From Micromonospora sonchi (lineage in GTDB: Bacteria > Actinomycetota > Actinomycetes > Mycobacteriales > Micromonosporaceae): a stretch of DNA of 64,000 nucleotides. The stretch is from assembly GCF_014646235.1 (NCBI RefSeq), contig NZ_BMNB01000002.1:1-64000 (forward strand), given 5' to 3'. A program made the position numbers and the translations under genes. Each line of letters starts with the position of its first letter. Position 1 is the first letter of the stretch. This document shows positions 6,266 to 46,844 of this stretch, in pieces. The notes below the pieces were generated by a model, which saw nothing but the letters and a program-made list of their open reading frames with translations, was not told the origin of the DNA and made no database searches.

Positions 6266-6361
6266 GGAGGCGTTCAGGTGGCTGGTGCCCCTCCCGGTCT
6301 TCAACACCGGTGTGGTCCGGGACCCGGGCCAGGCGGGTTCGATTCCCGTCCGTCTCCGCCA
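6266..6361 (+). tRNA. selC: tRNA-Sec (anticodon TCA)
   Basis: The gene is 96 nt with an encoded CCA end and discriminator G. The acceptor GGAGGCG (6266-6272) pairs with CGTCTCC (6351-6357). The anticodon stem CCGGT/ACCGG (6294-6298, 6306-6310) encloses a 7-base loop with TCA at 6301-6303. The very long variable arm (about GGTCCGGG/CCCGGGCC) and the T arm with TTCGATT are typical of tRNA-Sec. It lies between the formate dehydrogenase operon and selA, and decodes UGA at codon 190 of fdhA. Confidence 0.96.
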
Positions 6362-42472: not shown

Positions 42473-42656
42473 GTCATCCGGGCGCCCTCATGGTCGGTAC
42501 GGCATTCAGATCGCCCGCTGCGTCACAGACGATGATCGTGGATGCAGATCTCGCCGCCAACACCATGCTCCGTGTGACTCACCGTGATTGCGGACGAGCC
42601 ATGAACGCGAATACAAGACAGTTGGATTACCCGACCCTGCCAGTCGGACGGCCCGG
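42473..42656. repeat. Repeat B, copy 2
   Basis: The copy matches 32483-32663. Its left edge truncates the epoxide hydrolase gene. Its right edge overlaps the 3' end of the tyrosine recombinase gene, so the last ~7 residues of that protein are encoded inside the repeat. Confidence 0.7.
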
Positions 42657-43649
42657 CTGACCACGCACCAACCCCACCAACGCCCGGTTCGTGCGATTGG
42701 CCCGCACCGCCTCCCGCTGCTGACCCGCGGTCACCTCGATGTAGTTCTGCGACGACGCCAACGACGCGTGCCCCAACAACCGCATGATCTCCGCCGCACC
42801 GGCGCCGTCCTCGGCCAACCGCGTCGCGAACGTGTGCCGCAACGCGTGCAACCGCGCCCCACGCGGCACCCGGTCGCCGATACCGGCCCGCCGGTAGCAG
42901 GACTCCACCAGATACTGCAGACCGCCCCGACGCAACGGCTCACCGTGCCGGTCCACCAGCAGCGGCGAATCCGGCCGCACCGTACGCGAACCGAACCGCC
43001 TCCGGCGACTGTCCAGATAGTCCGCCAGCACCGCGTCCAGGTCCGGCTCCACCGGCATCATCCGGGGCCGCCCACCCTTGCCCGACACCTCGAGCCGCCG
43101 CTCGCCGGGCCGGCCCGCGAGCGAACCGACCCGCAGCGCCAGCAGCTCCGACAGCCGCAGGCCGGCGCAGAGCGCCAGGGCCAGCACCGCCACGTCCCGC
43201 TCCGGCCACGGATCACGCTGCCGGCCCTCGCCGCGCGCGGCCGAGGCGAGCAGCCGCTCCGGAGTGTCCTCACCGCGCAACGGCTTGGGCTCAGGGAGCG
43301 GGGCCCGGGGACGGCCCACCCCCGGCATCGGATTGCCCGTCACCACCTGCTCGGCCACCAGGAAGGAGAAGAAGCCGTTCCAGGTCGACCAGGCCCGCCC
43401 CACCGAGGCAGCGGCCCGGTCGGTGGCGAACCGGGCGAAGGCCGCCCGCAGGAGTCGGGGGGAGAGCGCGCCGATCCGAAGATCGTCGAGGGGGAGGGGA
43501 GGGGTGGCCAACTCCGCGGCGAGGGCGGCCACGGTGCTCAGATCACGCCGGTACGCGGCCTGGGTGTGGGGGGAGGGCTTGCGGGTGGCTCGCGCGGTCA
43601 GGAAGTCCTCGATCAGCGCGACGACCGCCTTATCCGGTTTGTCATGCAT
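42627..43649 (-). CDS. Tyrosine recombinase (XerC/D-like integrase)
   Basis: The 340-residue recombinase has an N-terminal core-binding SAM-like domain (~10-105) and a complete catalytic set: Arg165 (C-A-G-L-R-L-S-E), Lys191, His268-x-x-Arg271 (H-A-L-R-H-T), His294 (L-L-G-H-A-S) and Tyr303 (Q-N-Y-I-E-V). It appears intact. ATG 43649 is chosen; longer in-frame starts run across a palindrome. The C-terminal tail (R-P-T-G-R-V-G) derives from repeat B. A dif-like site lies 0.7 kb upstream of its start, so it may be the chromosomal Xer recombinase or an element integrase acting there. Confidence 0.88.
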   Translation of the reverse strand: MHDKPDKAVVALIEDFLTARATRKPSPHTQAAYRRDLSTVAALAAELATPPLPLDDLRIGALSPRLLRAAFARFATDRAAASVGRAWSTWNGFFSFLVAEQVVTGNPMPGVGRPRAPLPEPKPLRGEDTPERLLASAARGEGRQRDPWPERDVAVLALALCAGLRLSELLALRVGSLAGRPGERRLEVSGKGGRPRMMPVEPDLDAVLADYLDSRRRRFGSRTVRPDSPLLVDRHGEPLRRGGLQYLVESCYRRAGIGDRVPRGARLHALRHTFATRLAEDGAGAAEIMRLLGHASLASSQNYIEVTAGQQREAVRANRTNRALVGLVRGQPGRPTGRVG

Positions 43650-43665
43650 AAGGCATATTATGCAT
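43644..43665. promoter_or_regulatory. Palindrome with Xer-site geometry over the recombinase start codon
   Basis: ATGCATAA (43644-43651) and TTATGCAT (43658-43665) flank a 6-base spacer GGCATA. The inner ATAA-6-TTAT core is the same as in the dif-like site at 44344. It could be the recombination site or the autoregulatory operator of the recombinase; the ATG lies inside the left arm. Confidence 0.5.
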
Positions 43666-43758
43666 GATTCTCGCGTCTGGCGCTGCCTTCGGTGCGGGGG
43701 AGAAGTGTCGGTGGCCGGTTCTAAAGTGGCCTCACCTGTCGAGCGATGGAGGCACACC

Positions 43759-44319
43759 ATGACGACCCTGCCCGGGCGGCCGAACACGGCGCTGCTCGTT
43801 GTCGACGTTCAGCAGGGAGTGGTCGCCGGCGCCCACGACCGCGACGGCGTGATCGCCAACATCAACACCCTGGTGGCCAAGGCCCGCGCCGAGAAGGTGC
43901 CCGTCATCTGGGTGCAGCACTCCGACGACGACCTCCCGCAGGGCAGCCCGGACTGGCAGTACGTTTTCGAGTTGGTCCGCCGCGACACCGAGCCGCTGGT
44001 GCACAAGCGCTACGGCGACTCCTTCGAGCAGACCGACCTGGAGGCGGTGCTGGCCGAGCACCGCGTCGGCCGGCTGGTCGTCACCGGCGCCCAGACCGAC
44101 ATGTGCATCCGCTCGACCCTGCACGGCGCGCTGGTGCGCGGCTACGACGCCACGCTGGTCACCGACGCGCACACCACCGAGGACCTCAGCGCGTACGGCG
44201 CGCCGCCTCCGCACCAGGTGATCGCGCACACCAACCTGTACTGGCGCTTCCAGTCCGCGCCCGGACGACAGGCCGGCACCGTGCGGACGGTGGAGGTCGA
44301 ATTCGCCGTGGCCGGCTGA
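43759..44319 (+). CDS. Isochorismatase-like cysteine hydrolase
   Basis: The 186-residue enzyme has the catalytic triad Asp16 (V-V-D-V-Q-Q-G), Lys83 (H-K-R-Y-G-D-S-F) and Cys116 (Q-T-D-M-C-I-R). The family includes nicotinamidases and other amidases; the substrate is not clear. ATG 43759 follows GATGGAGG. It lies between the two Xer-like sites. Confidence 0.9.
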   Translation: MTTLPGRPNTALLVVDVQQGVVAGAHDRDGVIANINTLVAKARAEKVPVIWVQHSDDDLPQGSPDWQYVFELVRRDTEPLVHKRYGDSFEQTDLEAVLAEHRVGRLVVTGAQTDMCIRSTLHGALVRGYDATLVTDAHTTEDLSAYGAPPPHQVIAHTNLYWRFQSAPGRQAGTVRTVEVEFAVAG

Positions 44320-44343: not shown

Positions 44344-44371
44344 ACTTTACATAATGTGGATTATCGAATCC
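44344..44371. other. dif-like Xer recombination site
   Basis: Left arm ACTTTACATAA (44344-44354), central TGTGGA and right arm TTATCGAATCC (44361-44371) match the reverse of the actinobacterial dif consensus as I recall it (ACTTGACATAA arm, TGTNBA centre, TTATCGG... arm). The XerD-type arm matches 10 of 11, the centre fits fully and the inner XerC-type arm matches 6 of 11, with all arm mismatches there in the outer five bases. It lies 24 bases after the isochorismatase-like gene. Confidence 0.65.
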
Positions 44372-46320: not shown

Positions 46321-46844
46321 GCTGGGTCCTCCTGCAGGCTTGTCCCGATGAGCGTGGACGGTGGCTTCAGGTCGGCTCGCAGTCGGGCGAGCCCGCGCGA
46401 GGCCTGGCTTTTGACCGTTCCGGTCGAGCAGCCGAGGACCTGGGCGATGTCCGTCTCGCTGAGGTCCTCGAAGTAGCGGAGGACGAGCACGGCTCGCATC
46501 CTCGGCGGCAGGCGTCGCAGCGCCCCCAGTAGGTGGTGTCTGTTCTCGGCCCGGTGGTAGGCGTCCGGTGCCGTGATGGCGTCGGCTTCGAGAAGGGGTA
46601 CCTCGACTGTTCGGCGGCGTCGCCGCCACGAGACCGCGGTGTTGACCATGACCCGGCGGACGTAGACGCCGGGTGCGTCCTTGCGGAGGACGCGGCCCCA
46701 CCGCCGGTGGGTTTTTTCCAAGGCCGACTGCACCAGGTCCTCGGCGGCGCCGCGGTCTCCGGTCAGCAGGTAGGCCGTGCGGGTCAACGGCCCCCACTGT
46801 TCCACCACGAATTCGCGAAACCGTTCCTCGTCCTCACCCGGCAT
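46317..46844 (-). CDS. SigE-family ECF RNA polymerase sigma factor
   Basis: The 175-residue sigma factor has region 2 (R-T-A-Y-L-L-T-G-D-R-G-A-A-E-D-L-V-Q) and region 4 (L-S-E-T-D-I-A-Q-V-L-G-C-S-T-G-T-V-K-S), the actinobacterial SigE70 pattern. It is translationally coupled to the membrane partner gene (ATGA). Confidence 0.92.
   Translation of the reverse strand: MPGEDEERFREFVVEQWGPLTRTAYLLTGDRGAAEDLVQSALEKTHRRWGRVLRKDAPGVYVRRVMVNTAVSWRRRRRTVEVPLLEADAITAPDAYHRAENRHHLLGALRRLPPRMRAVLVLRYFEDLSETDIAQVLGCSTGTVKSQASRGLARLRADLKPPSTLIGTSLQEDPA

Follow-up and report, generated by a model that had tools for sequence, protein, structure and literature searches.

Within the 64,000-nt stretch of Micromonospora sonchi DNA analysed here (the window), a 28-bp site resembling a Xer recombination site lies close to a gene for a tyrosine recombinase. 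This raises the question whether the site is the dif of the chromosome or the scar of an element that exploits the Xer system, and what the recombinase beside it might do. The site is laid out as follows:

44344-44371, minus strand: chromosomal dif, with the XerC arm at 44361-44371, the centre at 44355-44360 and the XerD arm at 44344-44354

As given on the forward strand, the 28-mer reads ACTTTACATAATGTGGATTATCGAATCC, and on the minus strand the dif is GGATTCGATAA-TCCACA-TTATGTAAAGT. Compared with the dif reported for Frankia alni, CACGCCGATAA-TGCACA-TTATGTCAAGT (Kono et al., 2011, PMC3025954), the XerD arm agrees in 10 of 11 positions, the inner XerC arm in 6 of 6, the outer XerC arm in 0 of 5 and the centre in 5 of 6. 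The arms are as the original prediction had described them, whereas the "full fit" it had claimed for the centre does not hold against F. alni. A search for the 28-mer in the whole 6.59 Mb assembly gave a single match at up to three mismatches (reversed control, 0), and the dif core pattern with the same tolerance matched the window once, compared to a mean of 0.01 per shuffle in 100 shuffles. A degenerate dif pattern occurs in 157 of 160 Micromonospora genomes, with one match each and none for the reversed control. The three genomes without it (G083, G131, and G182) also lack the recombinase and the second site described below, and for all of these absences an assembly gap and a loss cannot be told apart.

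The distance between dif and dnaA amounts to 0.419-0.498 of the chromosome in all 39 complete genomes of the genus (median 0.487), while among 16 other genomes it is at least 0.476 in 15 and 0.384 in G359; many of the genome lengths behind these fractions are rounded to 0.1 Mb. With one site per genome that lies opposite dnaA, the suggestion of a chromosome terminus site is well founded. Since the assembly of the strain itself consists of 101 contigs, the terminus position of its own dif is taken by analogy from the complete relatives. The genome also encodes a XerC- and a XerD-like protein (C8 and C39), which belong to separate supported clades. With its 28 bp, its 11-6-11 build and its arms that fit the consensus of the lineage, the site at 44344-44371 is an ordinary chromosomal dif, unique in its genome, at which, by analogy, XerC and XerD presumably recombine at the replication terminus. 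It resembles the XerCD/dif sites of Actinobacteria in length, terminus position and single copy and is in itself no different from them, the outer XerC arm being a lineage variant: because 20 of 37 genus genomes fit the whole 28-mer within three mismatches, this arm is typical of the genus and not hybrid. While such a dif is routine, the module linked to it is not. Its features, together with one gene in between, are:

42627..43649, minus strand: dif-linked Xer-type tyrosine recombinase, 340 aa from the likely ATG inside site2 (PF00589, E=1.6e-21)
43641..43668, minus strand: site2, a near-palindromic 11-6-11 site, ATCATGCATAA-TATGCC-TTATGCATGAC, with 0 matches in 100 window shuffles
43759..44319, plus strand: isochorismatase-family hydrolase between site2 and dif (PF00857, E=9.8e-34)

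That an intact tyrosine recombinase lies 0.7 kb away had been noted before and is confirmed here, while the second Xer-type site and the conservation of the pair had been missed. The ORF of the recombinase spans 42627-43787 on the minus strand, and translation from the ATG at 43649 gives 340 aa; this ATG is the likely start, because the residues upstream of it are broken by stops in many relatives. Named relatives of the protein with up to 90% identity are from Micromonospora. The hydrolase, in turn, is not part of the module: its ORF finds counterparts in no more than 5 of 11 family regions and in one of nine regions from f15 (taken as Pseudonocardiaceae, inferred from named matches, 15 genomes of which were fetched); these counts are upper bounds, as the searched ORF also runs antisense to the recombinase. 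As a neighbour of dif, no other ORF of the window comes close to the recombinase in the number of regions; the presence of the recombinase in the regions from other genera is by construction, since these were centred on it.

Compared with the established models, the recombinase scores best, yet poorly, against XerC (TIGR02224; 155.7 bits, cut-off 335), while it reaches 131.6 bits against XerD (TIGR02225; cut-off 330) and 60.8 bits against the XerS model (cut-off 267). It stays below the XerC and XerD equivalog cut-offs and falls into a separate clade. It is the clade that decides, since the XerC and XerD proteins of these genomes score below the cut-offs as well: the strain's own XerD-like C39 reaches 311.8 bits and its XerC-like C8 257.4 bits (XerD model), both being encoded on other contigs. 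In a tree of 86 rows, calculated by a quick method with SH-aLRT as the only support, XerC (96), XerD (99), a fourth recombinase (99), and the dif-linked recombinase together with its plasmid relatives (99) form separate clades; XerC and XerD of other genomes were labelled by best identity to the strain's own two proteins, and the tree held no XerS or XerH rows. The clade of the dif-linked recombinase sits on a long branch, and as long branches meet in this tree we are unsure about the order of the clades. Judged from its sequence, the recombinase constitutes a third Xer-type clade, apart from the XerC and XerD encoded elsewhere. Its residues R165, K191, H268, R271, H294, and Y303, which we take to be catalytic from their roles in the family, are invariant in sets of 19 and 43 sequences. 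Among 406 pairs from 29 genus sequences, omega has a median of 0.21 and a maximum of 0.37, pointing to purifying selection. An AlphaFold2 model was obtained with pLDDT 87 and pTM 0.71; because the whole-chain TM-scores against the folds of XerA, XerH, lambda Int, Cre, and XerD are only about 0.4-0.6, the predicted domain arrangement is uncertain.

The recombinase is strongly linked to dif. A match (E<=1e-40) is present in 153 of 160 genus genomes, one in each except for two partial matches in G014. The lists used for linkage comprise 150 of the 157 dif matches and 150 recombinase matches, and among the 143 listed genomes with both, the two share one contig in 141. Here their distance is 200-3074 bp (median 584; not more than 1.5 kb in 138/141), and dif is always found on the 5' side of the gene, 136 times in the usual relative orientation and five times flipped. 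The five genomes with the flipped dif (G093, G084, G067, G112, and G157; L272-L276) all have TTACCC as site2 centre, which points to a single rearrangement in an ancestor that they share.

Beyond the genus, 267 of 354 family genomes from 20 of 44 genera contain a match at E<=1e-30. Among 27 recombinase-bearing genomes of the other family genera, dif lies within 1 kb in 22 (a weaker site in G349) and at 2.5-9.7 kb in four, while none was found in G257; in the g30 and g24 genomes examined, dif is present and a recombinase ortholog was not found. A search of the order revealed a match at E<=1e-28 in 125 of 397 genomes. In f15, dif is situated 0.5-2.2 kb upstream in 9 of 15 genomes, with no dif within 8 kb in the other six. 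The six recombinase orthologs away from dif (L185, L186, and L189-L192) are without the symmetric site as well, and five of them form a clade of their own in the tree, as if in f15 site and dif linkage had been lost or gained together. Furthermore, the best 80 of 479 relatives by protein similarity were taken as a named set, of which 60 loci were scanned after 20 non-actinobacterial ones had been dropped. Of these loci, 36/60 have a strong dif at no more than 5 kb and 30/60 at no more than 2.5 kb; it is upstream in 35 of the 36 (controls: reversed dif pattern 0; single-base shuffles 0, 0, and 1). The linked loci include Micromonospora, Plantactinospora, Couchioplanes, Actinoplanes, Lentzea, Kutzneria, Amycolatopsis, Nocardiopsis, Kribbella, Actinokineospora, and Kineococcus. 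Outlying among the 36 are two Rhodococcus loci, R. oryzae and R. triatomae, where dif is distant (about -4.4 and -4.8 kb), and Mycobacterium lehmannii, where it is on the other side (+1.7 kb); these three may be plasmid-borne or due to chance. In the nine Acidimicrobiia loci of the named set, this pattern found no dif, and site2 is absent too. The trio of dif, symmetric site, and recombinase recurs in Pseudonocardiales, Nocardiopsis, and Kribbella.

At up to two mismatches the pattern of the second site, site2, matches in 154 of 160 genus genomes, once per strand or once overall, as a single near-palindrome gives; G090 has a second, weak place. Besides the three genomes without dif, it is missing from G028 and G142, where contigs are apparently broken, and from G161, where one base is lost. 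Site2 places are listed for 77 genomes, 74 of which also have a listed recombinase, and in 73 of these 74 the site lies at the 5' end of the gene. In the exceptional genome (G110, L269) it precedes an apparently frameshifted recombinase and its right arm is altered to TTATGTACGAA, possibly through joint decay of gene and site or through a sequencing error. A strict site2 near the start was detected at 45/48 genus, 22/27 family, 6/15 f15, 4/5 f8/f9, and 4/7 plasmid loci, with a predicted background of 0.005-0.008 per zone (calculated from how often the site occurs in other parts of the f15, family, and genus loci) and no far matches seen in the plasmid or f8/f9 loci. With a 700-bp zone, f15 has the site at 8 of the 9 loci linked to dif and at none of the 6 others. 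In the named set it occurs at 31/60 loci, at 25 of them together with dif and in 24 of these 25 between dif and the gene.

Across orders, the arms of site2 stay near TTCATGCATAA/TTATGCATGAA while the 6-bp centre varies freely, as is expected of a tyrosine-recombinase site. Changes in one arm are compensated in the other across a wide set: for changes present on both sides, 32 chosen sites gave 36 cells against 16.9 in shuffles, a value reached by 0 of 500 shuffles, most of these sites having been found with a palindrome filter that is partly the source of the stronger signal. For 28 Micromonosporaceae sites obtained without this filter, 15 cells stand against 10.0, reached by 14 of 500 shuffles according to one figure and by 25 of 500 according to a second, so that the arm covariation suggested there is modest. 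A specificity residue was considered and rejected, as no amino-acid position was found that cleanly separates the TGCATAA-type from the TGGATAA-type sites.

We interpret gene and site as a self-contained single-recombinase resolution module of the XerS/difSL or XerH/difH kind that is kept beside the classical dif, and give this reading a probability of roughly 0.55; its activity we infer from conservation, dif linkage, site architecture, intact catalytic residues, and selection. The recombinase would bind both near-identical site2 arms as a homodimer, two copies of the site, on sister chromosomes or in a chromosome dimer, would synapse upon meeting at the septum close to dif, and the joined chromosomes would be resolved by strand exchange within the 6-bp centre. 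The module could then serve as a second or backup terminus resolution, built like the multimer-resolution cassettes of plasmids, and its placement at dif might exploit the septal DNA pump, while in Micromonosporaceae the occupancy of site2 may in addition repress the recombinase gene (autoregulation). More tentatively, and at somewhat less than even odds, many Actinomycetes, namely Micromonosporales, Pseudonocardiales, Nocardiopsis, and Kribbella, might possess two independent resolution systems side by side at the terminus, the second of which, of plasmid type and mostly within 0.2-3 kb of dif, would have sister chromosomes as its substrate, at the septum or close to it.

XerS/difSL and XerH/difH each comprise one recombinase and an inverted-repeat dif-like site with a 6-bp centre at the terminus (Carnoy and Roten, 2009, PMC2731167), the site being usually near the gene (PMC2731167, PMC9765430). 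In anatomy the module is alike, as it combines one Xer-type recombinase with intact catalytic residues and a nearby dif-like site with a 6-bp centre at the terminus; the arms of the extra site are, in contrast to those systems, almost symmetric here. The organisms with XerS or XerH have a single Xer recombinase, whereas here the classical dif, XerC, and XerD are found in the same genome, and the module is not the sole dimer-resolution system. Nor is the protein an ortholog of either: its score against the XerS model is low, and XerH is only distantly related in sequence and fold (17-19% identity in Foldseek alignments). Because XerC and XerD are present too, a second system is not obviously needed, which counts against the module, as do the 29/60 named loci without site2, the 24/60 without a strong dif within 5 kb, the 6/15 f15 recombinases that are off dif and lack the site, the g30 and g24 genomes with a dif and no ortholog, and the 3/7 plasmid relatives without a clear site.

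Cre/loxP and XerCD/cer are plasmid multimer-resolution cassettes, the former with its own recombinase gene. The likeness to them lies in a recombination core site of the kind that resolves multimers and in the site upstream of plasmid relatives of the recombinase; the module here differs in being chromosomal, kept through the genus, and located beside dif. In a plasmid collection 497 records match the recombinase, all below 60% identity. Seven relatives were examined with 2.5 kb on each side of the gene, and the clear 11-6-11 sites upstream of four of them lie at distances of 40, 46, 49, and 640 bp to the annotated start, while among the other three L153 has an imperfect site and two have none. 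In Mycobacterium kansasii pMK12478 the arms are CTCATGCATAA/TTATGCATGAA, nearly those of Micromonospora. A plasmid-sized contig of 191 kb (G468:C1, L195) carries a recombinase relative with site2 as well as a dif-like GCGCCAGATAA-CATCCG-TTATGTCAAGT 0.8 kb downstream.

An adjacent third recombinase finds no mention in the available part of Kono et al. (2011, PMC3025954), and in the titles and opening lines of abstracts of the open-licence literature none beside dif was recognisable for actinobacteria. A second Xer module that is conserved at the terminus therefore appears to be undescribed and new in the open-licence literature searched. If active, it would place two Xer systems at one terminus, as opposed to the usual split among organisms into XerCD and single-recombinase systems, and chromosomes of several orders would have retained a resolution cassette of plasmid type. 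An active module would also lend itself to testing why a place at dif is important and would offer a compact recombinase/site pair distinct from XerCD/dif. Furthermore, the module accounts for a gene that is easily taken for a phage integrase.

One might argue instead that site2 is only an operator, through which the protein controls its own leaderless promoter, while a recombination target, if there is any, lies elsewhere. For Micromonosporaceae a pure operator role is conceivable, because the site overlaps the likely promoter and start codon: it mostly starts 19 bp before the ATG and extends across it, so that the right arm holds the likely ATG of the recombinase gene, and a -10-like TAATAT can be read in its middle, which makes a promoter putative. 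The single copy per genome would fit an operator as well. However, the distance between site and gene varies outside this family, which fits a recombination site better than a mere operator: the site is found 62-691 bp from the start in f15, 399-502 bp before the protein match in Nocardiopsis, and on pMK12478 640 bp from the recombinase gene, in front of another gene. The exact 11-6-11 Xer geometry, the inner ATAA/TTAT bases, the free centre, and the location at dif likewise speak against the operator, which we consider unlikely on balance.

Alternatively, a plasmid or another element with a resolution cassette of its own might have inserted itself at dif or close by in an ancestral chromosome, the cassette now persisting as a fossil or domesticated relic with no role for the chromosome. 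Such an origin could be read from the best 20 of the 497 plasmid matches, which are mycobacterial apart from one Prescottella plasmid and show 35-40% identity, and Xer-exploiting elements are known to target dif (PMC9765430). Signs of purifying selection and invariant catalytic residues are not what a relic would be expected to show, however, nor is its near-universal presence in the genus with linkage to dif over several orders, and we regard this scenario as improbable.

Still more doubtful is that the recombinase works on dif directly, joining XerC and XerD as a third partner, with site2 being secondary. The tight linkage to dif would suit such a partner, as would the inner ATAA/TTAT half-sites common to dif and site2. 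Yet the outer arms of the two sites differ, and the arms of dif retain the classical asymmetry that suits two different recombinases. Moreover, the seven plasmid stretches contain no strong dif (one weak match, in L154), and four of them nevertheless have the symmetric site.

That the dif carries a hybrid arm left behind by an integrated Xer-exploiting element, as the original prediction had proposed and as the difference of 5/5 outer XerC bases from the Frankia reference might suggest, is hardly credible, because the same arm occurs throughout the genus and the window holds neither a second copy nor an XerD half-site. An IMEX attachment site would require the far end of the element to carry another dif or half-site; elsewhere in the window, no XerD half-site (up to two mismatches) and no XerD arm plus centre (up to four mismatches) was found. 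Consequently, the claim that the site closes an accessory zone (27.4-44.4 kb) finds no support, since neither a second dif-like core nor an XerD half-site bounds this zone. XerC half matches with two mismatches occur at 46584 and 55214, on the opposite side of dif from the zone.

A phage-borne element was rejected as well. The symmetric-site pattern, restricted to exact arms TCATGCATAA/TTATGCATGA, has 0 matches in viral contigs, and the phage relatives of the recombinase are distant (74 records, all below 60% identity and none covering 80% of the query). The dif pattern matches three viral contigs from IMG/VR (L362, L363, and L364), each of which contains the dif-linked recombinase and a site2 at its very end. 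These look like host flank that was called prophage, the chromosomal recombinase having probably been mistaken for a prophage integrase.

Two further observations were made in passing. A fourth Xer-like tyrosine recombinase is encoded just beyond the window (G000:C2:70595-71428), and in 19 other family genomes it lies about 2-64 kb from dif, with 70-95% identity in 18 of the 19 and 39% in G326; these 20 regions (L248-L267), including that of the strain itself, were chosen for a known second match near dif. No dif-like site is present at its start in the 20 regions, bar a palindrome at -190 in L264, and the gene also occurs in G260, a genome without the dif-linked recombinase. Finally, ARAGORN predicts a selenocysteine tRNA at positions 6266-6361 of the window.
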